Shown one piece after another: positions 36,346 through 62,400 of a DNA stretch of 64,000 nt (position 1 is the stretch's first letter; the number at the start of each line of letters is the position of its first letter). The stretch comes from Aptenodytes patagonicus (Eukaryota > Chordata > Aves > Sphenisciformes > Spheniscidae), in the NCBI RefSeq assembly GCF_965638725.1, contig NC_134958.1, positions 22,632,336-22,696,335 on the forward strand, read 5' to 3'. Under the pieces are notes generated by a model. The model saw only the letters and a program-made list of their open reading frames with translations, was not told where the DNA came from and made no database searches. Made by a program: the position numbers and the translations under genes.

Positions 36346-36640
36346 GGGTCATGGTCCAGCGATGCTCAGGCGGGTCCCGGGGCTTGCTTGGGTGATGTAC
36401 ACGATGCTTAGGTGACAGGCGATGCGGAGGGGATACTGGGGTGATGCTCTAGTGATGCTCTTGGGGCTCAGAGTGATGCTCAGGTGTCTCAGTGGGATGC
36501 TCAGGAGATGCTGGGCAGTACTGGGGGGGATGCTGGGTGATGCCAGGAGATACTGGGGGGATACTTGCGATGCTCGGGGGATGCGGGGCGATGCCCGGGA
36601 ATGCTGGGCGATGCTGGGACGGTCTGCCAGCTCCACCTGC
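36346..36640. repeat. Degenerate GATGCT-rich repeat
   Basis: Directly continues the preceding array with diverged GATGCTNNGG words (for example GATGCTGGGCGATGCTGGG). It looks like an older, eroded part of the same expansion. Confidence 0.7.
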
Positions 36641-37503: not shown

Positions 37504-40500
37504 ATGGCTTCAAAACGGCACTTGGAGTCTCTGGACCCTGTGATTTTCAACAAGCTACCTCGGCTGGAGACGGAGCCCACCGCCGGCTTCCCCAACGGCC
37601 TCTGCAAATCCAGCCCTGTGCCCAACCCTGGCTCCGAAAACCATTTCAACTACAAGGGCTCCTACTTCGCCTGCCCGCTGCAAAGCCCCGATGGCCCCGA
37701 GCAGCCCCTGGTGCGCTGGAGCCCATCGGCCGCCTACCTGCACTATGGCACCGGTGCCGGCAGCCAGCCCACGCCGGCGGAGGGGTCGCTGGTGAGCTGC
37801 CTGCTGTACCGACCCGAGAGCCTGGGGACCGGGCTGCAGCCCCCGGGCGCCGAAAAGGGCAAGGACAGCCTGATGCGGGAGCTGCTGATGGCGAGGGAGA
37901 AGTGGACCAGCCCGCCGCCGGCTCCGGGGCACCCCTTCCCGGTGAAGAAGCCGGTGGCGGTGAACAAGGCGGCCCCCCTGGCCGTCCCCAAGCCGGTGTA
38001 CAGAGCCCCGGCGTGCTTCGTGGACCCCAGGATGGCCCTGCCGCTGGGACCCCAGGCAGAGAGCCTGCAGCAGAGACCGGGGGATGCAGACTGGGCTCTG
38101 CCTGCCGCCGCCCCCACCAGCCACCCTCTCCGCCCCGGCGAGCCCCGCAGCGGCACCGGGCTGCACAAGAGGGGTCCCCACTCCGACCCTAGCCTCCCGC
38201 CGCTGCACCCCAGCCTGGCGCTGCCCGCCAAGGAGAAGGTGGGCTCCCCCATCGCCTTCTCCCCCTACTACGCCGCCTTTGAGAAATACAGGGCCCCCCC
38301 TGGTAGCCCCTTCCTGGAAGCCAGCTGCCCCGCGGCCCACAGCCAGAGGAAGGTGCCTGAGGTCCCCAGCCTCAGCCCGGACCCCTGGCTCAATCTCCAG
38401 CCGCCCACTGCCAGCCCGGCGTACCGGGAGAGGCCACCATCGTGCTACCCGCACACCCACTACCCGCTGCCTCTCCATAAGGCTGCCCTCCTCTACCACC
38501 CCCCGGCTCCCTCTGTGGAGGCACAGCCCAGCACCCTGCCTGGCGCCTACAAAGGCTTCGGCTTTGCAGGAAGCGGGGAGCCCTTCCCTGGCACTTACCT
38601 TAAGCCCCAAGCCCCAAGGAGCTACTTTCCCGGCCCCTTGGACACCTATGTGCCAAGGGCAGCCGGTGCTGGTGTGGTGGCATCACCGCCTGCCAAGTCG
38701 GCGGCGCTGCCGAGGGATGCCGAGCCGCCGCAGCGAGCCGGCTACTTGCCGAGCCCCGGCTTTGCCTTCAGCCCCGGCGACACGGCCATATTCGGCACCT
38801 CCTTCGCTGGCACGGAGCCGGGCTGCCAGCAGCACCCGGCGGAAAGTCCCCGGCGGCGAGCGGCGGCAAGGCACAACAGCGCTTTCCAACCCGTCTGTGC
38901 CCCAGAGAAGGTGCCCGGGGGCTCCGGTGGGCTCACAGAGACCTTTCCCAAAGGTGAAGGGGGCTGGGTGAAACCCAGCCGGGGAGAGCAGGAGCCCCCC
39001 TACCCAGGGAGGAGGAGGGCCAGCCCAGCCCCCCAGGAGAGCCCCCGCGGGGGACCACCGGCTCCCATCATCGTAGGGAAGGGAGATACCTGCAAGGTCA
39101 AGGATACAGCCAAGGAGCTTGTCCCCCCTTCTGCGGCTGCCTCCCCCCCGGAGGGGCTGAAAGTCCCGAGGGACGGCGAGGTTTCTCCTTCCTCCCCACC
39201 CATGCCAGTGATCAACAACGTCTTCAGCCTGGCACCTTACCGAGACTACCTGGAGGGGACCGAGGGCTCAGCCCAGGTCCCCTTCTCCAAGGAGCATCTG
39301 CGGGGGAACACCCCACCCCGAATCGCAGGGAGCAGCTGCGAGCCCGCTGCCCTCGGAGACGTCTCGGTGATGTCCAGCCTGCTGCCCACGGGGACGGCGG
39401 CCGGCCGGGCGCTGAAGACAAGCAGCAGTGCGGTCCAGAGCCAAGGGGAAAACTGTTATGGAAGGGTCCCTGAAAAGCCAAAGCTTGTGCCCCAAGACCT
39501 GGGGTCTCAGAGGGGCAGCCCCGGCGGGGCAGGGAGCGGGGAGCCGGTCCCCGAGGATGTCGCGCTGGACCTCAGCTTGAAGAAGAGACTGGTGAAAGCT
39601 GGGGAGACCCAGGGACCTGTCGGACGCACGGAGGGGACGCCAGATGGGGAGGGTGCGGAGGAGGAGAAGGAGGGTCCAGAGGGGAAGACGAGGGTGGGAG
39701 AGGGGGCCAAGCCCCCGACACTGCCCTCGCTGCTTGGGGTGGGCTCTGGGGACAAGAGCAACTTCCAGAGCTCGGCCACCTTCATGTTCAAAAAATACAA
39801 GATCCTGCGCTCCCTCCCGCCCAGCACCGTGCCCCCCCGGCAGGCTGGTAGCCCCCGTGCCCCCCGGCCCAGCCCACCGCCACCAGCCCCCTCCGGCAGC
39901 ATCCCCACACCACTGCCGCGGACCCCCTCCGCCTCCCCGCCGGCCAGCAGCCCCCCGACCCCGCAGCCCGGCCCCCAGCCCAGCACCTCCGCTCTGCGGG
40001 GGGCTCGCCTGGACCTGCAGCAGCCCCCGCTGCACGAAGCCCCCCGCGCGTCGGGAGAGGAGAGCATCTCGCTGCCCAGGCAGTGTGAGGCCCCTGCCCC
40101 GCAGACCTCCGCCGGTCAGTATTTCGCCACCCTGCACACCTCGCTCTGCGACATTATTTCATGCTCGGTGTCCAGGTCCTCCCCGGAGCTCCTGCGGGAG
40201 TGGTTGAAGAAGGCAGAGCCGGCGGAGGAGCTCGGAGAGATGCCCAAATCCCCCCCCAAGCCCAAGAACGGCTCCAAGATCCCCGAACCTCAGAAGCCCA
40301 CCAAAGGCAAGGAGATCTGGCTGGCTTTCCAGGATGTGGCCGCTCTTCTCACCAACCTGCTCTCTCAGCTGGAGACCTTCATGTTCGCTCGCAAGTGTCC
40401 TTTCCCCCACGTAGTCCGGGCAGGGGCCGTCTTCATCCCCATCCACGTGGTGAAGGAGAAGCTCTTCCCCAAGCTCGCCGGAGCCTCCGTTGACCACGTG

Positions 40501-41858
40501 CTCCAGGAGCACAAGGTGGAGCTGCGCCCCACCACGCTCTCGGAGGAGAGGCACCTGAGGGACCTGGAGCTGAAGAGCTGCACGTCACGCATGCTGAAGC
40601 TCCTGGCGCTCAAGCAGCTCCCTGACATCTACCCGGACCTGCTGAACCTCCACTGGCACGACTCCATCAGGCAGCAGCTCGGTAGGTAGCCCCGGCATCT
40701 CCGGTGGAGGGCTGGTGACACCAGTGGGTCCCTGGGACCCTTCCAGGGAAGCTCCAGCCGCATCTGCCTCCCAGATGCTGCCGTTTGGTGGGAGCATCCA
40801 TTGCTTGCGTGGTCCCTCAGCATCCTTGTCCTACCAAGGGTTCTGCGGAGCAGAATATTTAGCTTTTCTCCGTGGGTTGTGGAGAGAGAAAGCTTGAGCT
40901 GGGGGGGTGGTGGTGGAGCCGGGGGGGGTTGTCCCTGCCTGCCTGGGTGAGAAAAGTCATCCCGGGGATATCGAGGAGGTGTCGGTCACCTCCAGGCCAC
41001 CTCTCCCCCTCCAAGGGCAGCGGGACCGGGTGGCTCAGGAACACGCTGGGAGCAGGGCAGCGTGCGCGCCGCATGCCGGACCTGCCACCCACGGCTGTCC
41101 CATCCCACCGGTGACGGTCCCACCACCCCTCCCTGTCTGGATGCCCTTTTGCCGCTGCTCGAGACCATTGCCAACAACTTTATTTCTTAACAGGTTCAAG
41201 CTCGCAGGCTGGCCAGCATCCCCCCAAATAGGTGACTCTTCTTGTGTGTGCGTTTATATGTATTTATAGGATTTGTACGTAGTTACGTGAAGGGGTGTGT
41301 GTATTTGTGTGTATTTGCCACGGGGACGGGGAGGGGGCTGGGGAGGAGCACACGAGTGGCTCCGCTGCCTGGGCTGGGCTGGAGGGGGGATTTGTGGCTG
41401 AGGGGGGCTTGTTCGGGATGGGGAGGTGAAGACCCTGCCGTCCCTAACCACTCTTTCCTCTCCCAGGTAGCCCTGATGTGCAGGCACTGAAAGCTGATGG
41501 CAAAGCGATAGCCACGGGTAGCACGAAGGAAAAGGAGGCGCTAAGGACCGTGTCAAGGGCAACAGCCGAGCCGCCCGCCCGCGAGGACGGGAAGGGGACG
41601 GTCCCCCTCGTCCCCAGAGCAGGGTCCCCTCCCGGCAGCGATGCGGATGCCGAGGGGAAGCAGGCGATCACCAGCAGACCTGCAGGGAGACGCTCGGCTC
41701 CCACCGGCGGGGAGCCTTGCACCCGAGGGTGGGGACAGCTCCTCCCGGGATGCCGGTGCCTGGAGGCCACCGGCACCGCAGGGACCCTCCGAGGACGATG
41801 CTCGGGGTGGAGAACAGCGGCAGGGACGCGCGACCCAGAGGTGCCCCAGGGGCCATGA
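37504..41858 (+). CDS. C15orf39: C15orf39 orthologue, uncharacterised Pro/Ser-rich protein
   Basis: Two coding exons, 37504-40681 and 41467-41858, give a 1189-residue protein (human is about 1050). The 5' UTR starts at 37444 after a strong acceptor (tttctctctcctgttcag). The donor follows CAGCTCG (GT at 40682, phase 1) and the acceptor ctctcccag ends at 41466. The N-terminal block KR-x-LESLDPVIFNKLPRLE and NYKGSYFACP match the human protein. Residues 563-583 carry SSPPMPVINNVFSLAPYRDYL-type conservation, residues 686-694 an ALDLSLKK motif, and 873-1060 the conserved C-terminal region (CPFPHVVRAG, SVDHVLQEHKVELRPTT, LPDIYPDLLNLHW). The rest is low-complexity Pro/Ser/Ala sequence. The last exon tail of about 130 residues shows no clear similarity to the human tail as I remember it. 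Molecular function is not established; ALDLSLKK resembles a CtBP-binding PxDLS motif. Confidence 0.93.
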
Positions 41859-44135: not shown

Positions 44136-44504
44136 GTAAGGGGTGCTGGTGGGGTGAAGTCTTGCTCTCCCCAGTGAGGCTATCTGAGACAAGGTGGATG
44201 CTTCGGGCAGGGAATGTCTGAGCCCGAGGCTGGCTGCAGCCCTGCTCTGCACTGGGGGCCTCCCCAGCTCCTCCTGGGAGGTGCTGAGGCTTGGCATGAG
44301 CTTTCCTGAGCTGGTGAAGCTGCTCGGTGCTGCTGGAGACCAGGGAGATGTTTTGAGAAGGGGCCTCCTGTCCCCAGCTCTGGTGTGTGGGATGCTCTGG
44401 GGATGGGCCAGCCAGTGTCACTGGGGTGGGCTTGGGGAGGGGGGGAGCTTGAAGAGACCCGGCCTAAAGTTCCTGCTGTACCTCTCTGCAGCTGGGCTCT
44501 CCCC

Positions 44505-47500
44505 ATGGCCTCTCCCAGGCAGAGCCGAGGGGTAGGACCACCGGACCCCACGGACATCGCTGCCCTACAGCTGAAAATGATGTTCTATGGTGAGAAGGAA
44601 GGGGCTGTGACCACGGCCCTGGGTCCTGCTGCCAGTGTGGCTGCTGCTGCCAGCAGGCTGTGGTGCAAAGCCTTCCTGGTGCTGGCCATCTGCCTGTCTG
44701 CCACTGCTCTCCCGTACAGCCTGGGGTCTCTGGCTGCTCCACCCCGGGCCCCCCTGGGCTCCCTGCCTCCTTCCCACGCTCGGCCGGGCTTGCCAGCCTC
44801 CCAGAGAGGGACAAGTGATGATCTGGTGGCAACACGTGGGGACCTGCTCAACTACCCAGTGATGCAGCAGCGTGGGAGGGCGCTGACGGGCTCTGTGGGC
44901 ACCCCAGGCTGCTTCCTGGGGGTTGAAGGAGACATGACCCATGGGACAGATGCTGAGGGCTGGAGCCTGGGGACACCGACCACGGCCACTGCCTCTCCCT
45001 CGACAGCTCAGACCTTACCACAGTGGCACTCTGAATCCAGGCATGGGGAAGGGCTCAGGTTGGGCACAGCAGCGGCTGTGACGCTGACCCCTGCACCGTG
45101 GCTTGGCACAGGGGTGCCTGCTACCTCGGCTCGGCTCCTCCAGACCACCCGTGGCCCCAGCCTTGGCTCCCGGCACCACTTTGCTCTGGGAAACCTCCAC
45201 GGCACAGGACCAGGCTCGCACAATCCAGCGTGGGTGCCTGCAGTGACCTCAGCCCATGGCCTCGGGCAGCCAGCGGGCACGGCAGAGCCCCAGAGCCCAG
45301 GGGGGAGGTCTGAGGGCACCCCTCGTGCTGAGGGTGAGCCAGCTGCTTGGGTCCCTGCTGCCTCCCCGGCACGGCGGCAGGCTCCCTCCCTGCCCACGGC
45401 TGTCTCTGGCCCCTCTGCAGCGGCTGCCTTGCTGGAGGTGGTGCCCACCCAGCTGGTCTCACCTGAAGGGGCTGCTGGGGGGGCTCGTGTCCCATCTGAT
45501 GCCCCAGCACATGCGGGGTCAGCATGGACATTGATGGGTACTCCCTCACAGAGCCACAGCACAGCGGACCAGCCCAGAGGTGACCAGATGCCGGCCCTTG
45601 GGGCATCCCCTGACCATCGGACCATGCCCCACAGAGCAGACCTCAGCTTGGCTGCGAGCTCTAAGCCTCCTGCTGTGGTCACAGCCAGCGATTCGCCTTC
45701 TTGGGCCAGAGTTGTGACAGCAGCACAGGCTCCCAGCAGCGTGCCTGTGTCTGATCAATCTACAGCCAGTGGCTTCTCTGACGTCCAGCATGGAGCTTCA
45801 GTTGCCGGAGCCACAACGAGGAGCTTCAATGGGCAGAAGGAAGAAGTGAGACCAAGCCCCGGCCTGCCTGACCTTGGTACGGGCAAGGACCACGCCGCTG
45901 CTCCTCACCTGGTGCCCCTTCCAGGGGTGACTTCAGCTCTGCCAACAGAAAGGACGTCCAGCTCAACCGAAATGCATCCCGGCACTGTGTGGGTGCCCTC
46001 TGCCGTGACACCTGAGATGCTCTGGGACACACAGCCTACTGGCACCTTCCTGCATGGAGAAGCTGCTCTACTGGTGGATGCCGTCTTGGCCAAGGTCCCA
46101 GGAAATGGCTCTGGACTTCTGGCCACCGTCTTGGCATCACTTCCCAGTGCTGCGTTGGCTCGTGATGTCAACCACCCGCAAGTGCTGGCTCCCTTCCTTC
46201 CTACAGCGGAGTCTGGGGGACCTGCTGTCACCTCGGGGAAACTGAGTGATCTGTCTTCCCCCCCTGCACAGCAGGCTCTGCTGACATCCACTGAAGCCCA
46301 CCCTTCCCCTGCTCAGACCAGAGCCCCCAGTGCTGCAGGCCCCACCGTGGCTGGGGTGAGCTCGGCAGCCCCTGATGCCATCCCAGACCCTGGAACAACC
46401 AAAGCCCCCTGCAAGGATGGAGCTGCTATGGTGGCTTCCCCCTCTCCGAGAGCTGCAGGTGTGACACATGGCTCCCCCCTGGGGTCACCTACCCAGAGGC
46501 CATCTCTACATCCAGATCCCTTCCTCACAACAGCATCCAAGGATGGACCTGCTGCAGGGCAACACCAGGCCATGGAGGTGGCAGAGATGAGTGTGCTGCC
46601 TGGACAGGTGGCTGTGGAAGAAGCTGGGCACAGTGAGCCCAGGACAGCATCGGTAGGACCCACCGCTGCTCCGGCAGGACCTCCAGGGCCCACCCATGCC
46701 AGCCCAGGCTCTGTGCCTCCTCCCAGCTCCAAGAACCCTGCTCCGGAGCATTGCTCTGAGGCTGTGCACCACACCGCCACCACGAGCTTGCCATCTCCAT
46801 CCTACCTGCTGACTTCCACTGGAGCTGTGCTTGCAGCCAGCTCCCCGCTCAGCTCTCAGACCCTGGCTGCACCAGCAGGAGCGACCCTTGATGCTCGGTC
46901 CACGTCAGGTCACCCCGTCACCTCCCAGCACCCCTCCGCAGTCAGAGAGCATCTCCCTGCAGCTGCAGGAGAGGCCTTCACCCCAGCTAAGCTGATGACG
47001 ATAGGCAAACCTGGCTTGCCGGGGGTGAAGCCCCCTGCATCCCCCTCCCCTGGGCTCCCCTCTCCTGCACAGCCTCTGCCCGCGCGTGTGCTGCCCTTGC
47101 AGTTCCGGCTGTTGGGCATTGCTTACACGGAGGCTCTGAGCAGCAGGGCTTCAGGGAGCTACAGGGAGCTGGAGGAAGAAGTGAGACTGATGGTGAGTGC
47201 AGGAGCTGTTCGGTGGAGGTATCGGTACTTCTGGGTGCAGGGGGTGCAGCTGAGAGGCTACTGCAGCAATTGCAGCAAGCCCTGCTGGGGTGAGGAGCCT
47301 GCAGGCTGCATCAGCCTTGGCTTGGTCTATCACCCACCTAGGCACGGTGGAGACAAGTAAATCCCTGGCACTGTTCCACTGGAGCTGGACTGGGGACGCT
47401 TGGCTTGAGGTGGGCCTGGCCGCCCCTCACCTCTAGCAGCTAACAGGGCCGTTGCATACTGTGTTGGTGCTGGGGTATTCCCTCCTGGGTGCTGTTTCTA

Positions 47501-50500
47501 GGCTGATGGGAGCCCTGGGTATGCCAACTCAGCCATGACCATCCCCGGAGGCCTGGCATACCCTGGGGTACCGGCATGCCCTACCCTAAGCAAACTGAGC
47601 TGACTTCCCTCTGTATTTATTGCACACCTCCTGGTATATGTCCCCTTTGCATGGGGGAGCTTGTAAAAGCTTCTCAGTTAACAGGCGCTTCTTTCTTCCA
47701 GCTAACCCAAATGCTGTCCACCTATGAGACCTTCCTGCAGGCAAATGTCCTCGGGTTTATGTGAGTATGCAGCTCTGCCCTGGGGCAACAGATGGAGAGG
47801 GGTGGGTTTGGCTTGGAGGGAAGGGTTTGCCCAGCAAAATGCCCCAGCCAGGTCTTGTGAGGGGCCATGCTCCCTCCACAGGGTCCCAAGGGATCCCTGG
47901 TTGAAAGTGTCTGAAGCTCCAGATGAAGCCACCTGAGACCTCTCTTTGGGTGGGGTGTTAATGTGAGGATGATGGGGCTCTAAAGCTGCTCCCGAAGGGG
48001 AGGTGGGCTGCCCATCATTTCATCTCCCTCCCAGGAACGGCTCGGTGGTCGTGCGAGGGGAGGCTCTGTTCCGGGGGGATGCTCCTGTTCCCACCAACTC
48101 CCACCTCATCCGGACGATCGTCACAGAGGCGAGCAGGGGAAGGAGCATCTTCAGCTGGCAACTGGATCCACGATCTGTCCAGTCCAGTGGTAAGCTGTGG
48201 AGATCTTCCCACAGCAGAGCTGCTGCTGTCAGGTGTCCTCCCTATACCTATATCAAAGCCAAATCCTGCCCAGTTCGGACTTCAGGCTTCACCTTCACTT
48301 AACATCCCTTCTCCTGACCCACGCAAAACCCTTTAGCGTTAAGGATGCCGGAGACCACATCTGCAGGAGTTGGAGCTGTGTGGTCCAGTGCTTCTGCTAA
48401 ACTATCTGGCTTCCCCTCCAGGACCTGCTTCTCCTGTCCTGGGAGGTGGTACATCCCCCGTCCTTCCCACCACAGAAGGTATTCATCTTCACTCAGCTGC
48501 CCTGCTGGCTTCCGCTTTCCGCGTGTGGCGGAGGATGAGCTCAAGGCTGACTGGTATCTCCCAAGGAAGGTGAAGGAACAGGTATGGGCATAACTGTCTT
48601 CTGAACTCTTTTAGGCTTCAGCCTGGAGAACCTGGACCCAGAGAAGCTGTCCATCTCTCTCACTGTCTTCCAGCTTGGGAGGAGCAAGACAGACCCCCTG
48701 GAGAGGCTGATCGGCAAGGTACGGCAAGCCTTGGCGGCTCTTCCAAAGGATGATGCTGGGAAAATGGGCACAGGCTGGCTGCTGCGCTGCCTGCACGCTG
48801 GGATAACGCGCACTAAAGCGGGCGCAGGGTTGAGAGCTCGTCTCCTCTTCCTCTAGGTGACTTGGTCTCTCAGTGCCCTCTACCGTGTGAGGAACTTCAC
48901 TTTTACCCGGCTCAGGTATGGGACGCAACTACCCCTCTCCAAAGCTCTTCGTTAAATTACCTTCACTACCTCTTGTGCGCTCTGCAGCTAATTAGCCATG
49001 CTGCAAAGATGGAGGGGACGAGTTGTGCAGCCCGAGGAAACCGGGGAGGGTGATGTGCAGCTGGTGGCAAACACTGTAACTGAGCACCTTCCCTGGGCTT
49101 GAGTAGTCATGAGCTGCTGGAAAAAAGACCAGCAAGGACGTGCTTGGTGAGCCTGGTCCCAGCTCTCCTGCCTTGCTTAGAGCCCTTCTCTCCCCTTAGA
49201 AACCTCAGTGGGGACCTGGAGATCACCGGAGATGTCTACCTCGACACGATCGTCCATGCTGATGTTGCAGATGTTCTGCAAGCCTTGACAGCTCTCGCAA
49301 CCTGCTCTGTGGACCTGACCTCCCTCTCGGTGGAGGGTAAGGACAGTCCCTGTGTGTGGTGGGGCTCGCTGCCAGCTCTGCTCACCCAGCACTCATGTCT
49401 TGCCTCTTCAGGAGCCAGGCTTCACCTGCAGGTTTACCCGGTCTCCTTCCTCATCACGAACAGACACTTCAGCGAGGACCTTCTGGATCCACTTGCTACA
49501 GAGCACCAGGAGCTCACCAGAGACCTTAGTGATGCGGTAGGCATGGCTGGTGGGAGGGGGCCAGGGTCCTCGCAGGGTGCTGAGAAAAGGAGGCTGAGGA
49601 CCACTGGAGGAAGAGGGACTGCTTTGGGGTTGCCCAAACCAGCCCCTCAACTCCAGTGCTGTGGCTGATACCTGCTGAAGGCAGGCACCGAGGCTTTAGT
49701 GGCAGGATGTTTTCTCTCCACTGACAGTGGTTCAGGCCACCACAATGCAGCCAGGGACCTGGAGGTGCTGCAGGACTGCAGCTGCCCTGTGTCCCTGCTG
49801 TAGTGGCTGTCCCAGCTCCATCATGGCCATGGAAGTGGTGGTCTGGCTGGGTGAAACACCCCAAAGGTTGGTGGGGAGCTGAGCAAAGCCTCTCTTCCAG
49901 GTGGCGAGAGCCCTGAGGGACCATAGGAGCTTCCTGCAAGTGGTGATAAGAGGATTCCTGTGAGTGGGAGCAGAGGGTCTGCTGGGGCAGGGGTGTACAG
50001 AGCCAGGGAGGTCTCCCTACAGACATCAACCAACAGGTCACGGCTGTCAGGTGTAGCATCTCAGCCACAGAAGGGTTTGCAGCAGGCAGCTGAGGTCAAG
50101 CATTTACCCACTGTCTCAGGAGTTGACTTGCCAGACCCCCAGGGATGTCCCTTCCATCCCAAAGAGCAGATGCAAAACCAATACCTCCCTGAGGGCAGAG
50201 GTATCCCCGTGGAGCCCCTCTGAACAAAACCAGCTGGGAGTCTGGCTGTGCCCACGGCCACAGCTCAGCACGTGGCTTGCGGGGTCACGGTGGGACTGGC
50301 AGCTGCTGGAGCTCTTCCCAACCCTGTCCACAGGCCTGGTTCCTTGATCTGCCATGGGGATGTGGTCTTCCAACACCCTGCTCCGACCAGCCTGGAAGTT
50401 TTGGAGGCACTTGTGCTCTCAGTTGGGCCAAACAAGGCTTTGGCTGGTTCAGACTTCCAGGTGGACCCGTACTCTCTTGCTGTGGGAGGTAAGCTTCCCT

Positions 50501-51745: not shown

Positions 51746-54229
51746 ACCCGGCTGTGAATGGTGTTGAGCCCTCCTGCCCAGGTGGGCTCCCACCCACCAA
51801 GGTACAGCTCCTGGAGGGGGGTGGGGGGGTGGTATAGGAGCTGTAATGGGCAGCTGTCAGGCGGTGTGTGGCTTCTGCTTTACACCCAGGCTTGCTTAAG
51901 AGCTGTAAGCTCCCCCTGGCCAGACCCGGCTTTGAGCAGCCCAAGCCGTGTGCTGCTGGTCTAACTGGCAGCACTGAGCTGAGCTTGGTCTTCTCCAGCT
52001 CTTGACTAACTACTCACGGGTGCTAGGGAGTTAAAAGACCAAGGAAATGCATCCCTCTTTGGGGTGCTTTGGGGGAAATCAAGCCTTGGGCTGTTCCGCA
52101 GGTAAAGCAGCCCTTCCTGCTCTGCACTGGGTGCTTCCCTTCACTCCATCAGGCAAAGCACTCCACGATGGGGGCTGTTACTGCTGGCTACTTAACTACA
52201 AGGCAATGTGTTTTTTCACCTAAAAGCTTGTTTTTTTCCCTTCTTGTGGCACGCTTTTCCCCAGTGCGTGGGACTGGGCTCGGCGTGGAGGCAGAAAGCA
52301 GGCTCTACGTAAAGGTACTCACTTCAAAAAGCAATTTCAGTTGCTTTTTTCTTTAATCTATAATCAAAAGTCATCCAGTCCCGCTGTCCTCCAAACTTCT
52401 TCTCCGAAGCAGGCAGGGAAGAGCCTTGCTGCAGCGAGGGGCAGGGCTGACCCCATCCTGCTCTGGGGGTGCTTGTCCCCGTGCTGCTTGGCAGCCCTCG
52501 TGCCCCGTGAGGGCTGGTCCCGTGGGAGCAGAGAGCCTGGGTGCTGCCGGCAGGGATGCTCCCCTGCTCCTTTCCAAGGGAGAAGGGGGCTAACCCCAGC
52601 CTTTCCCTGTGCTCTGCAGGACAAGGAATGCACTTAGTGATCCTCAACTCCCACCCTCCCCTGCCGGCTCCTGCCTGGGAGTGACCCACAGGCAGCGAAT
52701 TCCTCGGGGGGGGGGGGGGGGGGGCAGAACCTGCTGCATCCCCAAACCTTGAGAAAATCAGAGCTCGGGCACCCGAAGGCATGAAGCAGCCGTCGCTGTT
52801 GCTTGTCAACTCAAATCTGTAGGGCTGGCTTTGCAAATCAAGGGCCACAAGAACTGACTCACCTCCTCTCTTGGGTGTCACTTACCCCCAGCACGTGAGC
52901 AAAGAGTAATAAGTGTAACTCAAAGCCCGACCAGACCAGTTCTGCTGCGCTTGGGAGGAAAAAAGGAAGCGATTCTATAGAAGTCTCTTTAAATGCCGGT
53001 TTTCTAGAAGTGATGCTTACCCGAAGGTGCAGGCAGGAACTACCCGACCTGCAGCGATGAAAGCAAGCGAGCCAAAAAAGGGGGAATCCCAACAAATGGG
53101 CTGAGAGAGTGTGAGAGTTAGCCTGGAGAGAAAAAAACAAACTGTAAGGAAGGAAAACAAGGCAGGGAAAAACAAACAACAACAAAAAAAAACCCCTGGT
53201 CTGTCTAGAAATGACATGGTGGGGCTGTTTGGTGGTGGGAGGTTGCTGGGGTGAATGACTGGGGCCCGGCAGCCGCCTTGCTCTGCCAGGTCTGTGGCAG
53301 GCGCTGGGGCCTTGCCTGATGCCCTTGAACCCCATGGTGTCCCTGAGGTCCCACCAGCAGCGTCCCCCCCCTCGCCTGGTCCCCGCCATGGCCCCACACT
53401 GGGAGCTGAGACTCATTGGGTTTTGCTGAGTGCCAGTAACTCGGATGCCACCACCGTGTCACCTTGCTCCCTGGGTGACCCAGCCGGCACCGGGCCCCTG
53501 CTCAGGGCCAGTCCCTGGGAAAGCCTTCGCGATGCCACAGGCTCTGGGCTCCTTCCTGTGCCTCTCCTCCTCCTCCTCCTCCTCCATTCCCCCAGACCCA
53601 AAAGTCGGCATCGACGTTAACACGGTTCTCCCCCTCTTCGGGGAAAGAGAAGGTGAAATGAGGGCAGGGCCCTTCCATCAGCTCTCCTGCAGGAGCAAAA
53701 CCCTCCTCATCCTTTTCCTCCTCCTCCTCCTCCTCCTCAGCAGGCTCTCCCTGGTGGGAGACGCGGCTCCCGGGGCATGGGGATGAGCAGCAGAGCGATG
53801 GAGCAGCTTCTGTGTCCCCTAAATGTCGGGGACCAGAGGGGGAGGCCGCATCCTGCTGCAGGGTGCTGTCTGCCTACTGAGCTTTCCTGGGGGGGGGGGG
53901 GGGGGAGGTCCCCGCTGGGGCATCATTCGGTGGTGGGTCCCTGGCTCCCCTGCCCCCCGCGTCGGGGGCTCCCCCTCTCTCACAGGGGTGGGGGCACCAA
54001 ATAGCCCCCTGCCCGACTGCCCCCCACCCAACTGCCACCAGCCTGGCCCCAGGCCCATCCCCAGCAGCCGTGGGGAGCGCAGGGGCGGGGGGCACCCGAA
54101 CTGGAGGGAGGGAGGGACACGCAGTGCGGGACCCCCCCCCCAGCGCTGGGGGCGCTGGTGCGGGCGGGGGCAGCGGGAAGGGGCCGTGCCCCGCGGGAGG
54201 GGCCTCCTCGCCCCGCCCACGCTTCATGC
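51746..54229. other. Intergenic between mucin-like gene and palindrome
   Basis: No exon chain was recognised. Features are a G run of about 21 bases at 52708-52722 and its flank, a C-rich/CTC-rich tract at 53565-53590 and 53705-53740, an A-rich stretch at 53165-53200, and a G run at 53890-53907. Minus-strand frames across 52324-53416 have no recognisable domain. Confidence 0.5.
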
Positions 54230-54231
54230 CC

Positions 54232-54285
54232 CGCCCCTCGCCCCGCCCATTTAAGTCCCGCCCGCCCCGTCCCCGCTGTCGCGGC
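54232..54285 (+). promoter_or_regulatory. Inward-facing promoter-like block, left arm
   Basis: Several CCGCCC boxes precede CGCCCATTTAAG, in which ATTTAAG (54249-54255) is TATA-like. A CpG-rich leader follows, with a donor at about 54700. The same boxes and spacing recur in the right arm although the intervening sequence has diverged. This is predicted from sequence only. Confidence 0.45.
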
Positions 54286-55109
54286 GGCTTCCGGCGCTGC
54301 CCCGGCTCTTCCCGGAGCGGCGGCCCCGGCTCCCTCCGTCCCGCTCCTTCCCCCGGCCGGCAGCGGGCCCGCCCGCTCCCTCCCCGCGCCCGGCCCGGCC
54401 CGGCCTCAGCCCGGGGAGCCCCAGGGCGGGGGAGCCGCCGTGTCCCCGCTCCCCTCGGTGTCCCCGCTCCCCTCGGGGCCGCCGCCCCCAGCCCCCGCCC
54501 TCGCCCTCCCGCGGGGAGGCGGCCCGGGCCCGGGCGGAAGGGGCCGGGAGCGGGAAGGGGCCGGGCCGGGGCAGGAGCCCCCGGGGCAGGAGCGGGCTCG
54601 GCGGGGCCCGGCCCCTGGTGCCGTCCCGGCCCGCCCGGAGAGGCCGGGGCCGACCGTGCCGCGGCCCCGGGGCCCGGCCTGGAGGACCTCGGCGGCGACG
54701 GTGAGTGGGGCCGCCCCGAGCCCGGGTGAGGGGCGCCGGGGGCCGCGGGGTGTCCCGGGCAGGGCCCGGCTGCAGCGGGGCCGGGCGGGCCGGAGGCCGG
54801 CGGGGGGCGGCTGCGGGCTCCCGGGGGCGGGGGGACCGGGGGGTCTCGGCTCGGCCGGGCCGGGCCGGGCCGGGCGACGCTGCTCGCCGACGGGGGCTGG
54901 GGCGGCCCGGCAGAGCCGGGGGACCCGGGCGGGGCGAGGCGGCCGGCGGGGCTGGACCCCACGGGCGGAGGCCGGGCTCCCTGCCCGCAGGAGGACGAGG
55001 CGACCCCGGGCTCCCGCCCGCACCGGCTCCTGGCTCCTGGCTGCGGACGGGCCCCGGCCCCCTGCCCGGCCCCGGCCCCCTGCCCGGCGGCGCTGGCCCT
55101 GCAGCCCCG

Positions 55110-56570
55110 GGACGCCCCGTTACAGCTCCAGCTCACGCACGCTTTGCCGCGGCTCCCGGCTGTCCCGGCTCCGCTGACGGACGCTCCAGCTCGGCAGCAG
55201 CTCGGCTCCAGCCCCGCCGTCGCCGGTTCGGCTCCGGCCCTGCAGCCTTTCGGGCCCTGCCCCGCGGTCTTGATCCCGGCCCCGGCGCCTTTGCTCCAGC
55301 TCCAGCACCGCGGTCGGTACGTCAGCTCCAGCTCCGCACCGTGTCAGCCCCGGCCCCACAGCATTTACTCCAGCTCTAGCCCGGAGGGATCTGTTTCAGC
55401 TTTAGTCCTGGCGCCTGTATGTCAGCCCCAGCCCTACGGTATTTCTTTCAGCTCCAGCCCCATCCCCAGAGTGTTCCTTTCAGCTCCAGCCCCAGGGTTT
55501 TTGTTTCAGCTCCAGCTCTAGTCTCCATTTCAGCCCCTGCCCTGCAGTCTCCATTTCAGCTCCAGCCCCTTCCCCAGGGTCTTTATTTCAGCCCCAGCCC
55601 TGTGGTCGGCATTTCAGCCCCAGCCCTGCAGTCTTCATCTCAGCTCTGTGATGTTTCAGCTCCAGCTCTATTTATTTCAGCTCCAGCTCTGCGTTGGTCC
55701 AGCCCCAGCTCCAGCCCTACAGTCTTTATTTCAGCCCCAGCCCTGCGGTCTGTGTTTCGGCTCCAGCCCCACACTCTGGATTCCGGCTCTAACCCTGCAG
55801 CGTTTATTCCGGCTCTAGCCCCTGCCGTACAATCTTTATTCCAGCTCCAGCCCTGCAGTCTTTATTCCAGCCCTACGGTCGGTGTTTCAGCCCCAGCCCC
55901 CGGTCTTTATTTCAGCCCCAGCCCTATGGTATTTCTTTCAGCTCCATCCCCTTCCCCCGAGTGTTTCTTTCAGCTCCAGCTCTGTGTTGTGTCAGCTCCA
56001 GCCTTAAGGTCGCTATTTCAGCCCCAGCCCTACAGTCTTTATTCCGGCTCCAGCGCAACGGTTGGCATTTCAGCTCCAGCCCTGCAGTCTTCATCTCAGC
56101 TCTGTGTTAATTCAGCCCCAGCTCCAGCCCTGCGGTCTTTATTCCAGCTCCAGCCCTGCGGTCTTTATTCCAGCTCCAGCCCTGCGGTCTTTATTCCAGC
56201 TCCAGCCCTGCGGTCTTTATTCCAGCTCCAGCCCTGCGGTCTTTATTCATTTCAGCTCCAGCCCCGCATTTATTCCAGCTCTGCGTCACGTCAGCCCCAG
56301 CCCCAGGGTCAGTGCTTCTGCCCCAGCCCCAAACTACGTATTTCAGCCCCAGCCCTCCAGCCCGGTGGTGGTTCAGCCCCAGCGTATTTATTCCAGCTCT
56401 GTGACCTCTCGGCTCCAGCCCCACACTCTTTATTTCAGCTCCAGGGTCCCTAGTCCAGCTCCGGCCCCGCTGTGTTTATGTCACCTTCGGCCCTACAATC
56501 TTTATTTCAGGTCTGGCTCCACCCTGACACATTCACTTCAGCACCGGCCCTACGGCCTTTAGTACGGCTC
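55110..56570. repeat. 26-bp minisatellite, left arm
   Basis: Degenerate array with core CAGCTCCAGCCCTGCGGTC followed by TTTATTC. The best copies are at about 56125-56250. Other units are variants with TTTCAGCCCCAGCCCT or extra bases. On the plus strand each unit resembles a 3' splice site (TTTATTTCAG). On the minus strand most units contain AATAAA. Long open frames here only reflect the lack of stops. Confidence 0.93.
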
Positions 56571-56672
56571 CAGCTCCGCATCCTTCCCGCAGCCAGCTGC
56601 TCCTGGGTCTCCCGGCAGCGCTGGGGCTGGTGACAAGGTCACAAATCAGTCACTGCCAGCACTGTCCCAGCA

Positions 56673-56684
56673 CTGAATAAAGCG
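56673..56684 (+). terminator. Poly(A) signal, outer unit, left arm
   Basis: CTGAATAAAGCG, with AATAAA at 56676-56681. It is followed by GTTGACCC and a pyrimidine-rich stretch. The mirror copy is at 60084-60095. Confidence 0.5.
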
Positions 56685-57363
56685 TTGACCCCCCCAGCCC
56701 CTTTCGCCCAGAGACTCTCTCATGCGTTGAGTTCGGCCTGGCGCAGGCCAGTGCCTGGGGGGCAAACGCCACCGGACCCCCACCTCCGGTGAGGGGCCCG
56801 CAGCCCTGCCCCCCACCCACCTGCCCACAGCCCTGCCCCCACCCACCTGCCCACAGCCCCCCCGGGGAGCCCCCACCCTGGGGTTTGGGGGCTGGGACTG
56901 GCCTCTTGGCCTCCCCTTCCCCACCCCAAAAGGTGGCACTCAGGCCGGTTCCGAGCCTCAGACCCGCAGCCCTGGGCCCCAACCCCCCCAGCTCGTGTTC
57001 GGGCCCAGACCCGCAGCCCTGGGCCCCAACCCCCCCAGCTCGTGTTCGGGCCCAGACCCGCAGCCCTCGGCTCCCTTTCCAGGCTCTGAAAGCGCAGCAG
57101 GCGCTTCGTCTTCCTTCTGAGCTGCCGAACCCCCGACCGAGCCGGGGTTTTCAGCCCCAAACCAGCCCCCGGGCTCATCCTCGGGCTCCGACACGCAGCA
57201 CTCGGTCCCCGCTCAGGGGGCTGCAGCCCCCGGGGTGAGGGGGAAGGGGCAGCGCGCCCACCCGCAGCCCGGGGCCCCAGGCAGGGAGCGCTCGGGGGCT
57301 GGGGGCACCTCCCCGGGGAGGGGCCGGCCCCGGGGCCGGGGCCAGCGTGGCTGCCCTCGGTTG

Positions 57364-57375
57364 CGCTTTATTCAG
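57364..57375 (-). terminator. Poly(A) signal, inner unit, left arm
   Basis: The minus strand reads CTGAATAAAGCG (TTTATT at 57367-57372 on plus). It faces the outer-unit signal, so transcripts of the two units in this arm would converge with 3' ends about 0.7 kb apart. Confidence 0.5.
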
Positions 57376-57930
57376 CTGTCGTTATCGCGCGTTACGCTTG
57401 CGACAGTGCAATGAGAGACGAGCGGCGGCTCTAGGATTATCCTTAACGGGGGTGTTATTCCGGGCCCGGGCCCCAGCCCCGCCAGCGCCCCCCCACCCCG
57501 CCCGGGAACCCCCCGCCCCCGGGCAGCGGCCGGTGCCCTTCGCCGCCCCCGCGGGCCCCGGGACCCGCTCGGCGCCGCGCCAGCCTCCGGGGCCACCGCC
57601 GCCGCCCGACCCCAGCGGGGAGCAGCCGGCGGGACGGGGCCACGCTCCCCCGCCGGGCACGGACCCGGGCACGGACCGGCACCCCCGCCCGGGCCGGCTC
57701 TCCCCCGCACCGCCTCCCGCCCGGGGCGCCCGGCCGCGCCGCTCCAGGCCCCGGAGCGGAGGCTCCGGCCCGGCCGGACACCGCGGGCCCGCGGCCGACC
57801 AGCGCCGCCCGCCCGCCGCCCCGCTCCCGGCGCTCCCCGGCCCGCGGAGCGGCACCACCGGCAGCACCCGCCGCGCCGCACGGCCGCCGCCGCCCGCCCG
57901 CGCACGCGCTCTACCGCCGCCGCCGCCCGC
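57376..57930 (-). other. Putative inner transcription unit, left arm
   Basis: It would start at the CCAAT/GC-box core and run outward to the poly(A) signal at 57372. Near its end lies a less GC-rich segment that can be read PPLRIILEPPLVSHC followed by TVASVTRDNDS and a stop overlapping AATAAA. The right arm copy has A for T at the one differing residue. The segment could equally be noncoding. No family was recognised. Confidence 0.3.
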
Positions 57931-57934
57931 CCCG

Positions 57935-58172
57935 CCCCGCCCCGCCCCGCCCCGCCAATCCCGACCCCAGGCAGCGCCCGGCCCCGCCAATCCCGGCCCG
58001 CCCGTTCCCGCCCCGCCCGTCTCCGCTCCGCCCAATCCTGTCACTCCCCGCCCCGCCCGTCTCCGTCTCCGCCCGTCTCCGCCCCGCCCAATCCCGGCCC
58101 GTCCCTTCAATCCGGCCCCGCCCCGCCTGTTCCCGCTCCGCCCAATCCCGGCCCGTCCCTTCACTCCGGCCC
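57935..58172 (-). promoter_or_regulatory. CCAAT/GC-box array, left half of palindrome core
   Basis: Several CCAAT boxes (CCCAATCC, GCCAATCC) alternate with CCCCGCCC boxes. It reads outward on the minus strand and mirrors 58515-58800. Such NF-Y plus Sp1-type clusters are typical of strong, often bidirectional, CpG promoters. Confidence 0.6.
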
Positions 58173-58514
58173 CGCCCCGCCCGGCTCCCCGGCCCCGGTG
58201 CCCCCGCAGGCCCCGATCCCGCCGCCGCCGCTCCGGGAAGCTCGGCCCGGCCGGAGGCGCAGGGACCCCGGTTCCCGCCCCCTCCCCGGAGAGCTCCCGG
58301 CCCGGGCGGTCCCGGCGGCGCGGGGCCGCTGGGGGCTCCGGTGCTTCCCGGCTCTGGGGGCTTGCACGGGGACCGGGAGCGGCCTCGCTGCGGAGCCCCC
58401 CCCGCCATCCCCCGGGCCCAGCACCGCCTGCCGGGACCCCGCGCCCTCCCGGGGCGGCGGCGGCGCGATCGGGGCCTCCGGGGGAGGGGGCGGCGGGGAG
58501 GAGGGAGGGGGAGG
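58173..58514. other. Palindrome spacer
   Basis: About 340 bases between the arms, extremely GC-rich and not self-complementary at large scale. It begins after the left CCAAT/GC-box array and contains GGCGGCGGCGGCGC-type sequence and GGGGGAGGGGGCGG runs. No coding feature is supported. Confidence 0.7.
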
Positions 58515-58800
58515 CGGGTCCGGATGGAAGGGACGGGCCGGGATTGGGCGGGGCGGGGATGGGCGGGGCGGGGCGGGGCCGAGAGTGTCAGGATTGGGCG
58601 GAGCGGAGACGGGATGGGGCGGGGCGGGTGCGCCGGGATGGGGCGGGGCGGAGACGGGCGGAGACGGAGACGGGCGGGGCGGGGAGTGTCAGGATTGGGC
58701 GGAGCGGAGACGGGCGGGGCGGGAACGGGCGGGCCGGGATTGGCGGGGCCGGGCGCTGCCTGGGGCCGGGATTGGCGGGGCGGGGCGGGGCGGGCGGCGG
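58515..58800 (+). promoter_or_regulatory. CCAAT/GC-box array, right half of palindrome core
   Basis: At least five ATTGG boxes (GGGATTGGGCGG, AGGATTGGGCGG, GGGATTGGCGGGGC) interleaved with GGGCGGGGC boxes precede GGCGGCGGCGGTAGAGC. With its mirror half it forms a back-to-back promoter-like core. Confidence 0.6.
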
Positions 58801-59380
58801 CGGTAGAGCGCGTGCGCGGGCGGGCGGCGGCGGCGGCCGTGGGGCGCGGCGGGTGCTGCCGGTGGTGCCGCTCCGCGGGCCGGGGAGCGCCGGTGAGCCG
58901 GGTCGGGGAGTGCCGGGAGCGGGGCGGCGGGCGGGCGGGCGGCGCTGGTCGGCCGCGGGCCCGCGGTGTCCGGCCGGGCCGGAGCCTCCGCTCCGGGGCC
59001 TGGAGCGGCGCGGCCGGGCGCCCCGGGCGGGAGGCGGTGCGGGGGAGAGCCGGCCCGGGCGGGGGTGCCGGTCCGTGCCCGGGTCCGTGCCCGGCGGGGG
59101 AGCGTGGCCCCGTCCCGCCGGCTGCTCCCCGCTGGGGTCGGGCGGCGGCGGTGGCCCCGGAGGCTGGCGCGGCGCCGAGCGGGTCCCGGGGCCCGCGGGG
59201 GCGGCGAAGGGCACCGGCCGCTGCCCGGGGGCGGGGGGTTCCCGGGCGGGGTGGGGGGGCGCTGGCGGGGCTGGGGCCCGGGCCCGGAATAACACCCCCG
59301 TTAAGGATAATCCTAGAGCCGCCGCTCGTCTCTCATTGCGCTGTCGCAAGCGTAACGCGCGATAACGACAGCTGAATAAA
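58801..59380 (+). other. Putative inner transcription unit, right arm
   Basis: It runs outward from the core to AATAAA at 59375-59380. It has a potential donor at about 58892 (GCGCCG followed by GTGAGC) inside a 23-bp insertion absent from the left arm. The terminal segment can be read PPLRIILEPPLVSHC, then AVASVTRDNDS and TGA within TGAATAAA. Coding status is unknown. Confidence 0.3.
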
Positions 59381-59383
59381 GCG
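59372..59383 (+). terminator. Poly(A) signal, inner unit, right arm
   Basis: CTGAATAAAGCG; mirror of 57364-57375. Confidence 0.5.
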
Positions 59384-60083
59384 CAACCGAGGGCAGCCAC
59401 GCTGGCCCCGGCCCCGGGGCCGGCCCCTCCCCGGGGAGGTGCCCCCAGCCCCCGAGCGCTCCCCGCCTGGGGCCCCGGGCTGCGGGTGGACGTGCTCCCC
59501 CTTCCCCGTCACCCCGGGGCCGGGGGCTGCCTCGGGGGGGCTGCAGCCCCCTGAGCGGGGACCGAGTGCTGCGTGTCGGAGCCCGAGGATGAGCCCGGGG
59601 GCTGGTTTGGGGCTGAAAACCCCGGCTCGGTCGGGGGTTCGGCAGCTCAGAAGGAAGACGAAGCGCCTGCTGCGCTTTCAGAGCCTGGAAAGGGAGCCGA
59701 GGGCTGCGGGTCTGGGCCCGAACACGAGCTGGGGGGGTTGGGGCCCAGGGCTGCGGGTCTGAGGCTTGGAACCAGCCCGAGTGCCACCTTTTGGGGTGGG
59801 GAAGGGGAGGCCAAGAGGCCAGTCCCAGCCCCCAAACCCCAGGGTGGGGGCTCCCCGGGGGGGCTGTGGGCAGGTGGGTAGGGGCAGGGCTGCAGGCAGG
59901 TGGGTGGGGGCAAGAGTGGAGAGCAGGGCTGCAGGTGGGTGGGGGGCAAGAGCGGGGGGCAGGGCTGCGGGCCCCTCACCAGAGGTGGGGGGCCGGTGGC
60001 GTTTGCCCCCCAGGCTCTGGCCTGCACCAGGCCGAACTCAACGCATGAGAGAGTCTCTGGGCGAAAGGGGCTGGGGGGGTCAA

Positions 60084-60095
60084 CGCTTTATTCAG
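60084..60095 (-). terminator. Poly(A) signal, outer unit, right arm
   Basis: The minus strand reads CTGAATAAAGCG; mirror of 56673-56684. Confidence 0.5.
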
Positions 60096-60189
60096 TGCTG
60101 GGACAGTGCTGGCAGTGATTGATTTGTGACCTTGTCACCAGCCCCAGCACTGCCGGGAGACCCAGGAGCAGCTGGCTGCGGGAAGGATG

Positions 60190-61500
60190 CGGAGCTGGAG
60201 CCGTACTAAAGGCCGTAGGGCCGGTGCTGAAGTGAAATGTGTCAGGGTGGAGCCAGACCTGAAATAAAGATTGTAGGGCCGAAGGTGACATAAACACAGC
60301 GGGGCTGGAGCTGGACTAGGGACCCTGGAGCTGAAATAAAGAGTGTGGGGCTGGAGCCGAGAGGTCACAGAGCTGGAATAAATACGCTGGGGCTGAACCA
60401 CCACCGGGCTGGAGGGCTGGGGCTGAAATACGTAGTTTGGGGCTGGGGCAGAAGCACTGACCCTGGGGCTGGGGCTGACGTGACGCAGAGCTGGAATAAA
60501 TGCGGGGCTGGAGCTGAAATGAATAAAGACCGTAGGGCTGGAGCTGGAATAAAGACCGTAGGGCTGGAGCTGGAATAAAGACCGTAGGGCTGGAGCTGGA
60601 ATAAAGACCGTAGGGCTGGAGCTGGAATAAAGACCGTAGGGCTGGAGCCGGAATAAAGACCGTAGGGCTGGAGCCGGAATAGCGACCTTAAGGCTGGAGC
60701 TGACACAACACAGAGCTGGAGCTGAAAGAAACACTCGGGGAAGGGGATGGAGCTGAAAGAAATACCATAGGGCTGGGGCTGAAATAAAGACCAGGGTCTG
60801 GGGCTGAAACACCGACCATAGGGCTGGAATAAAGACTGCAGGGCTGGAGCTGAACTAAAGATTGTACGGCAGGGGCTAGAGCCGGAATAAACGCTGCAGG
60901 GTTAGAGCCGGAATCCAGAGTGTGGGGCTGGAGCCGAAACACAGACCGCAGGGCTGGGGCTGAAATAAAGACTGTAGGGCTGGAGCTGGGGCTGGACCAA
61001 CGCAGAGCTGGAGCTGAAACATCACAGAGCTGAGATGAAGACTGCAGGGCTGGGGCTGAAATACCGACCGTGGGGCTGGGGATGAAATGACACAGAGCTG
61101 GAGCTGAAGTAAAGACCCTGGGGCTGGAGCTGAAACAAAAACCCTGGGGATGGGGCTGGAGCTGAAAGAAATACCGTAGGGCTGGGGCTGACATACAGGC
61201 GCCAGGACTAAAGCTGAAACAGATCCCTCCGGGCTAGAGCTGGAGTAAATGCTGTGGGGCCGGGGCTGACACGGTGCGGAGCTGGAGCTGACGTACCGAC
61301 CGCGGTGCTGGAGCTGGAGCAAAGGCGCCGGGGCCGGGGCCGGGATCAAGACCGCGGGGCAGGGCCCGAAAGGCTGCAGGGCCGGAGCCGAACCGGCGAC
61401 GGCGGGGCTGGAGCCGAGCTGCTGCCGAGCTGGAGCGTCCGTCAGCGGAGCCGGGACAGCCGGGAGCCGCGGCAAAGCGTGCGTGAGCTGGAGCTGTAAC
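60190..61500. repeat. 26-bp minisatellite, right arm
   Basis: Mirror of the left array. On the plus strand the unit reads GGAATAAAGACCGTAGG followed by GCTGGAGCT. About fourteen AATAAA hexamers lie between 60263 and 60970. The homogeneous block has TACGGTC (on minus) where the left arm has TGCGGTC, so each arm has fixed its own unit variant. Confidence 0.93.
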
Positions 61501-62343
61501 GGGGCGTCCCGGGGCTGCAGGGCCAGCGCCGCCGGGCAGGGGGCCGGGGCCGGGCAGGGGGCCGGGGCCCGTCCGCAGCCAGGAGCCAGGAGCCGGTGCG
61601 GGCGGGAGCCCGGGGTCGCCTCGTCCTCCTGCGGGCAGGGAGCCCGGCCTCCGCCCGCGGGGTCCAGCCCCGCCGGCCGCCTCGCCCCGCCCGGGTCCCC
61701 CGGCTCTGCCGGGCCGCCCCAGCCCCCGTCGGCGAGCAGCGTCGCCCGGCCGAGCCGAGACCCCCCGGTCCCCCCGCCCCCGGGAGCCCGCAGCCGCCCC
61801 CCGCCGGTCTCCGGCCCGCCCGGCCCCGCTGCAGCCGGGCCCGGCCCGGGACCCCCCGCGGCCCCCGGCGCCCCTCACCCGGGCTCGGGGCGGCCCCACT
61901 CACCGTCGCCGCCGAGGTCCTCCAGGCCGGGCCCCGGGGCCGCGGCACGGTCGGCCCCGGCCTCTCCGGGCGGGCCGGGGCGGCACCAGGGGCCGGGCCC
62001 CGCCGAGCCCGCTCCTGCCCCGGGGGCTCCTGCCCCGGCCCGGCCCCTTCCCGCTCCCGGCCCCTTCCGCCCGGGCCGGGGCCGCCTCCCCGCGGGAGGG
62101 CGAGGGCGGGGGCTGGGGGCGGCGGCCCCGAGGGGAGCGGGGACACCGAGGGGAGCGGGGACACGGCGGCTCCCCCGGGTTGGGACCGGGCCGGGCCGGG
62201 CCGGCCCCGGCGCAGCGAGGGGCGGTGGGGCGGTTCCTCCGGTCGGGCGAAGGGAAGGCGGGCGGGCGGACCCGCGGGGCCCGGAGCCGATCGGGAGCAG
62301 GGGCAAGACCGGAGCGGGGGCAGCCGCCGCGATGACGGGAACG

Positions 62344-62400
62344 CGATGGCGATGGGGCGGGCGGGGCTTAAATGGGCGGTGAGAGGGGCGGGGCACAGGG
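62344..62400 (-). promoter_or_regulatory. Inward-facing promoter-like block, right arm
   Basis: The minus strand reads GC boxes, then CGCCCATTTAAGCCCCGCCC, the same order as the left arm. Conservation of this block beyond the diverged leader suggests either function or a shared ancestral duplication edge. Confidence 0.45.

Follow-up and report, generated by a model that had tools for sequence, protein, structure and literature searches.

The 64,000-nucleotide window of Aptenodytes patagonicus analysed here (contig NC_134958.1, hereafter C10, positions 22,632,336-22,696,335) contains a palindrome of about 8 kb (P1), and a second palindrome of the same anatomy (P2) lies 480 kb to its left. We put the probability at roughly 0.5 that P1 and P2 represent a single palindromic low-copy repeat of 8 kb, present as two oppositely oriented copies that lie at the breakpoints of an inversion and exchange sequence with each other. 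All genome searches covered the assembly from which the window comes (1.35 Gb, 618 contigs), and counts from the DNA searches are lower bounds.

The original prediction described a palindrome with 3.9-kb arms and a 0.34-kb spacer, and an inverted self-match locates it where it was claimed to be. BLAST of the window against itself gave four collinear inverted matches from ~54,373 to ~62,225 (E = 0 to 3e-99). Shorter homology beyond these matches sets the arm ends at ~54,210 and ~62,400, giving arms of ~3.99 and 3.85 kb around a spacer of 351 bp. The BLAST identity of the arms (86-98%) understates their likeness because a 26-bp minisatellite and the edges lower the value; outside both, 1607 of 1617 positions are identical between the left and right arms. 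The prediction also held that differences between the arms argue against a read-through hairpin. This is upheld: the arms are unlike in places, and with P2 there is a second copy, itself diverged, in a 50-kb stretch without N, so a fold-back or read-through artefact is rejected. A mis-assembly joining two haplotypes, which the prediction had left standing, probably did not give rise to P1. The 941 bases just to its right match elsewhere in the assembly only an AAT microsatellite (40 of 125 candidates scored) and therefore do not represent a duplicated flank. The sequence thus supports P1 as an inverted duplication rather than a fold-back copy.

Searching with 121 bases of the inner arm gave four matches, namely both arms in the window and two sites 480 kb to the left, one on each strand. 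Probes from the outer arm, the mid-arm and the spacer recovered the same place (four separate DNA queries, with the inner arm). Comparison of 40 kb around this site with itself revealed a complete palindrome with a spacer of ~350 bp, identical to P1 in anatomy and set in different flanks; among matches of at least 200 bp, the palindrome is the sole sequence that P2 and the window share. The two cores align in opposite orientation over 5,048 bp through the centre (92%), and the spacers, also in opposite orientation, have 2 mismatches in 350. Apart from partial inner-edge similarities at both sites, the spacer occurs among the places scored at P1 and P2 only. The segment is thus flanked by two long, near-identical and oppositely oriented copies, as expected of inverted low-copy repeats at inversion breakpoints, and on these sequence comparisons the presence of the pair in this assembly is well supported. 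A mobile element was considered for the whole unit and rejected, as the DNA matches listed fall at two sites and show no dispersed copies.

We aligned the four arms of P1 and P2 from outer to inner end and compared three interior blocks that exclude the minisatellite. For the six pairings of arms, identity is 98.9-99.5% across 1,598-1,628 interior positions and 69-89% in the outermost ~225 bp (Fisher tests of the six pairs, p = 4e-14 to 4e-53). Arm identity far above edge identity is the pattern by which gene-conversion palindromes are recognised. It indicates that the last homogenisation of the cores is more recent than that of the edges; for this one individual we consider it probable that homogenisation of the cores followed divergence of the edges, and the outer edge is apparently the portion of the arm that escaped. 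At the inner edge, all 17 sites at which the arms divide two against two group the left arm of P1 with the right arm of P2 (p = 8e-9), hence the opposite orientation of the cores. The interior has 20 such sites when the array is included, 8 grouping arms of the same palindrome and 5 + 7 grouping arms across palindromes (p = 0.70), and 6 of the 20 fall in the minisatellite, where the alignment is least sure. Without the array, 6 group arms of the same palindrome and 1 + 7 group across (p = 0.11), the 7 being the crosswise class that an inverted copy predicts. These patterns would allow exchange within palindromes combined with one long exchange, or several, between them.

Landmark genes around the two palindromes (n = 13) were placed and putatively named by Pfam domains in stretches chosen by a codon scan (human codon table); the codon scan alone covered the 13.6-kb stretch from P2 to PML and the 30 kb that follow the initial 10 kb on the right side of the window. 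We take the human order to be NEO1(+)-HCN4(-)-LOXL1-STOML1(-)-PML(+)-(repeats B)-ISLR2-STRA6(-)-CYP11A1(-)-CYP1A1(-)/CYP1A2(+)-SCAMP2(-)-SCAMP5(+)-C15orf39(+)-(repeats C)-COMMD4(+)-NEIL1(+)-MAN2C1(-). Likewise, we take the DUF5525 gene of the window to be the C15orf39 homologue, and the SCP2-domain exon beside PML is presumably STOML1. Compared with this order, the bird retains order and strand from STRA6 to C15orf39, whereas COMMD4/NEIL1/MAN2C1 and HCN4/NEO1 are reversed and stand at opposite ends, so that one inversion suffices. P2 lies in a breakpoint interval of 23 kb from the COMMD4 exon to the PML exon, or 71 kb if measured to STRA6, and P1 in one of 317 kb from C15orf39 to the HCN exon. 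On this human order, with bracketed breakpoints and in this one assembly, it is probable that the palindromes sit inside both breakpoint intervals of a block that is inverted in comparison with human.

The apparently inverted bird block corresponds roughly to the human 15q24 interval between repeat blocks B and C, which also inverts in people: a 1.1-Mb B-C inversion is described in humans, and rodent synteny breaks at the repeat blocks (excerpt of PMC4927142). STRA6, CYP11A1, CSK and others including SIN3A are placed between LCR15q24B and LCR15q24C (excerpt of PMC3275445), and a minimal deletion interval is given as GOLGA6, ISLR2, ISLR, CCDC33, UBL7, ARID3B, CLK3, CYP11A1, CYP1A1 and CYP1A2 (excerpt of PMC2907565).

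We propose that the block carrying STRA6, CYP11A1, the CYP1A pair, two SCAMP genes and C15orf39 is inverted relative to both of its flanks, as the landmarks and the human order suggest. It would have been turned over by homologous recombination between a P1 arm and an oppositely oriented P2 arm, and the same recombination could flip it again; these two steps are the least certain. After the copies arose, their cores would have been homogenised within and between palindromes, by one long exchange or several. Recombination between P1 and P2 is a plausible cause of the inversion, with copying at staggered breaks a live rival.

Several observations weigh against this proposal. A 100-N scaffold gap (C10:22,696,336-22,696,435) immediately follows the last base of the window and starts 1.6 kb beyond the right end of P1; the search for gaps covered the surroundings of P2 up to 22.241 Mb and the sequence from 22.632 to 22.736 Mb. 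Both breakpoints are bracketed (23-71 kb and 317 kb) rather than pinned. Two features of the 13 landmarks misfit a single inversion, namely PML, which is on the minus strand beside P2, and the order of PML and the SCP2 exon; because PML is reversed and just inside P2, one of the two lineages must have undergone a further local change. LOXL1 should lie to the right of P1, but C10 gave no match to it, and the Neogenin_C and HCN markers served in its place. The comparison of gene order is between this bird and human. In the human order used here SIN3A lies beyond COMMD4, but the excerpt of PMC3275445 puts it in the B-C interval. As for exchange, the 6/1/7 split obtained without the array falls short of repeated free exchange in every combination, and the arm edges are GC-rich and hard to align.

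Each arm contains an outer CpG island, the minisatellite, two facing AATAAA signals and half of the central CpG island with its NRF1-like and CCAAT sites (Table 1). The units implied by these motifs run inward from each outer CpG island and outward from the central one. They thus converge inside each arm, and the earlier description, a head-to-head duplication of two whole transcription units, finds no support in that wording. Of its mirrored promoter, donor and poly(A) parts, the two AATAAA sites are present in all four arms. The rest are less constant: the TATA-like box is found in three arms (absent from the left arm of P2), the donor ACGGTGAGT in three (GGTGACT in the right arm of P2), and the inner donor in one of the four. 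The NRF1-like site is found in every arm, and a 39-base stretch near the outward-unit AATAAA is exact in all four. By its sequence the central CpG island would be a divergent promoter, and the CpG islands and poly(A) signals of the arms may be transcribed. The main minisatellite array has 21.0 copies in the left and 18.0 in the right arm of P1. Since it carries AATAAA on the outward strand, outward signals are numerous: 18 in the left arm of P1 (including that at 57372), 15 in the right (including that at 59375), and 10 and 12 in the arms of P2, against one inward signal in each.

Pfam families were not found in three plus-strand frames across both arms (equivalent to both strands of the arm), and the longest open reading frames differ among the four arms. 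Protein-coding arms are therefore rejected; genes of the kind carried by ampliconic palindromes are lacking among these Pfam results, as is golgin-type coding like that of the GOLGA core duplicons. A structured RNA is rejected as well, as the Rfam search gave no match at gathering scores and the conserved 3' stretch folds like its shuffled versions, 37 of 200 of which do at least equally well (z = -0.76). A simple pattern for the CTCF core had no occurrence in the palindrome, and the conserved stretch, considered for a viral origin, had no exact match among viral contigs.

Table 1. Positions of the palindrome features and landmark genes (window coordinates unless in Mb, which refer to C10).
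Feature	Position	Strand	Basis or remark
Outer edge, P1 left arm	54200..54425	+	six arm pairs 69-89% identical here
P1 left arm, outer to inner	54210..58197	+	inverted self-match, four-arm alignment
TTTAAG, TATA-like box of outer CpG island	54250..54255	+	motif match; mirrored at 62372(-)
GGTGAGT donor-like site (exon-1 donor)	54700..54706	+	motif match; mirrored at 61904(-)
26-bp minisatellite, left arm	55422..56355	+	AATAAA on outward strand
Dispersed GC-rich family match	56620..56900	+	73-78%, mostly C4
AATAAA, inward unit	56676..56681	+	mirrored at 60092(-); 4/4 arms
AATAAA, outward unit	57367..57372	-	mirrored at 59375(+); 4/4 arms
Central CpG island	57895..58820		motif match; NRF1-like sites 57899 and 58808, five CCAAT boxes each way
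P1 spacer	58198..58548		self-match, spacer DNA search
P1 right arm, inverted copy	58549..62400	-	inverted self-match, four-arm alignment
26-bp minisatellite, right arm	60521..61191	-	
GH38C (MAN2C1-type)	left of P2	+	Pfam, below cut-off
H2TH (NEIL1-type)	left of P2	-	Pfam, below cut-off
COMM_HN (COMMD4-type)	left of P2, exon end 1.1 kb away	-	Pfam, above cut-off
PML	right of P2, 13.6 kb away	-	PML_C; coiled coil and B-box above cut-off, RING below (region scanned in three minus frames)
SCP2-domain exon	beyond PML	same as PML	Pfam
PML and SCP2-exon stretch	~22.228-22.241 Mb		
STRA6 family	22.276-22.291 Mb	-	Pfam
P450 taken as CYP11A1	22.350 Mb	-	Pfam
Divergent P450 pair taken as CYP1A pair	22.506-22.519 Mb		Pfam
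SCAMP gene	22.564 Mb	-	Pfam
SCAMP gene	22.607 Mb	+	Pfam
DUF5525 gene, P1-end landmark of 480-kb block	37504..40686	+	Pfam, E = 2e-106
HCN-type exon, right of P1	22.990 Mb	+	Pfam
Neogenin_C exons, right of P1	23.12-23.13 Mb	-	Pfam

Other histories could account for the pair. A single palindrome may have stood at one breakpoint and been copied in opposite orientation to both ends of the block by staggered breaks, with later exchange keeping the copies alike. Two opposite copies bounding a block are what this predicts and what we observe, but the same orientation arises when recombination between arms flips the spacer, or from an inverted duplication unrelated to the breaks. Orientation is one bit of evidence and cannot separate staggered breaks from other origins, and we regard this history as possible, if tentatively so. 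It is rather unlikely that the present state goes back to a recent inverted duplication, or to a single long exchange of the finished core, without continuing conversion. The spacers, 2 of 350 positions apart, and the arm interiors at ~99% fit such an event, as does the near equality, without the array, of crosswise (7) and same-palindrome (6) sites. The outer edges at 69-89%, on the other hand, indicate that both places held related sequence before the cores were homogenised, and the 6 sites that group arms of the same palindrome call for exchange, or for parallel change, later than the copying.

Where inverted repeats are nearly identical, an assembler can place the sequence between them in the wrong direction, and the orientation of the segment from P2 to P1 could be an assembly choice. 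The palindromes would then be real and the intervening block mis-oriented, or heterozygous, with either path through the repeats available. Interiors ~99% alike and the scaffold gap beside P1 speak for this. It is made doubtful by a run of 50 kb without N through COMMD4, P2 and PML, by a repeat length (~8 kb) below that of usual long reads, and by the differences between P1 and P2 in array length and small indels; P1 is also joined to C15orf39 without N. A further reading, which we consider improbable, has the palindromes kept for a function, as paired CpG-island promoters giving divergent and convergent non-coding transcripts. The NRF1-like and CCAAT sites of the central island, the two AATAAA sites shared by all arms and the unchanged 39-base stretch would suit it. 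The TATA-like and donor motifs have nevertheless gone from some arms, the arms gave no Pfam domain and no Rfam match at gathering scores, and the conserved stretch folds no better than the shuffles described above. Oppositely oriented copies of one low-copy repeat at inversion breakpoints, exchanging sequence, are the explanation that we prefer.

The mid-arm is related to a dispersed family. A 301-base probe from a family member matched 30 segments, some of them pieces of one copy: 21 lie on C4, four in the arms and two on C21, while C10:15.79 Mb, C6 and C266 have a single one apiece. The C4 copies (~300 bp or more, GC-rich, low-copy) occur at 61.5-66.9 Mb and 82.5-86.5 Mb; those at 82.468-82.527 Mb are spaced 14-15.5 kb apart, and some copies of the family are in opposite orientations. 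One C4 member resembles the layout of the arm: a CAGCTCC-rich array precedes the matching segment and CpG-rich DNA follows it. The members at C10:15.79 Mb and C4:86.50 Mb showed no comparable palindrome (the latter has a 207-bp inverted pair) and no direct match to the arm at the settings used, though the mid-arm search scored the former. The arm thus contains an old member of this low-copy family, loosely like a core duplicon. Inverted pairs of ~656 bp (97%) and ~539 bp (96%) also occur, near reverse-transcriptase-like frames, and are presumably copies of the CR1 retrotransposon.

Elsewhere in the window, between C15orf39 and the palindrome (44310-49665), there is an open frame of 1016 amino acids, mucin-like by eye, followed by a weak SEA domain match below cut-off. 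An endonuclease domain (Exo_endo_phos_2, 5422-6300) marks a retrotransposon fragment, with reverse-transcriptase-like frames, judged by eye, continuing to 7242. Further large minisatellites occur at 35489-36353 (62-bp unit) and 10953-11496 (39-bp unit). A six-frame Pfam search of the 10 kb adjoining the window on its right side gave no match. On each of contigs C33 and C34, Neogenin_C exons at ~2.0 Mb are accompanied by one Ion_trans_N exon and by exons for lysyl oxidase; the two contigs resemble W and Z chromosomes with much sequence in common, as in palaeognath birds.

Among the papers listed in searches of the open-licence literature, made partly with bird terms, we found no earlier report of P1 or P2. 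Several known systems are comparable. PML lies inside the bird interval and outside the human B-C interval. As in the bird, human LCR15q24B and LCR15q24C, which contain GOLGA core duplicons, stand at both ends of apparently nearly the same gene block, and GOLGA repeats have been linked both with deletions at 15q24 and with inversions on chromosome 15 (excerpt of PMC6436712); in the bird arms, in contrast, no Pfam family was found, and the repeats are 8-kb palindromes rather than large blocks. At FLNA/EMD on the human X (HsInv0389) and at other such inversions, inverted repeats flank an inversion-prone gene segment (excerpt of PMC3961182), but in the bird each flank is itself a palindrome, every arm is matched at 480 kb distance by one copy in direct and one in inverted orientation, and the pair is known from one assembly. 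Inversions in deer mice have inverted repeats of 0.5-50 kb, a range that includes the bird repeat, and recombination between inverted repeats has been proposed for them (excerpt of PMC9715431); the mouse inversions are polymorphic and span 1.5-43.8 Mb, whereas the bird block spans ~0.48 Mb in one assembly. Sex-chromosome palindromes under gene conversion likewise combine arm interiors of ~99% with unlike flanks (excerpt of PMC8981503). The bird pair differs in being autosomal and small, in comprising two copies that share core and spacer, and in that a protein family was not found in its arms.

A broader and more speculative reading, which we offer as a doubtful possibility, is that nearly the same block independently gained unrelated inverted repeats in bird and human and flips in both. 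It would then be a long-lived inversion hot spot of amniotes, with paired palindromes as the bird hinges, keeping each other near-identical across 480 kb. If the explanation preferred above is right, a pair of autosomal palindromes would be exchanging sequence with each other while bounding, on either side, an inverted block largely coincident with the microdeletion interval of human 15q24. One could then ask if the reuse of breakpoints reflects the block and its surroundings rather than a particular repeat, and if inversion hinges are kept sharp by exchange across hundreds of kilobases.

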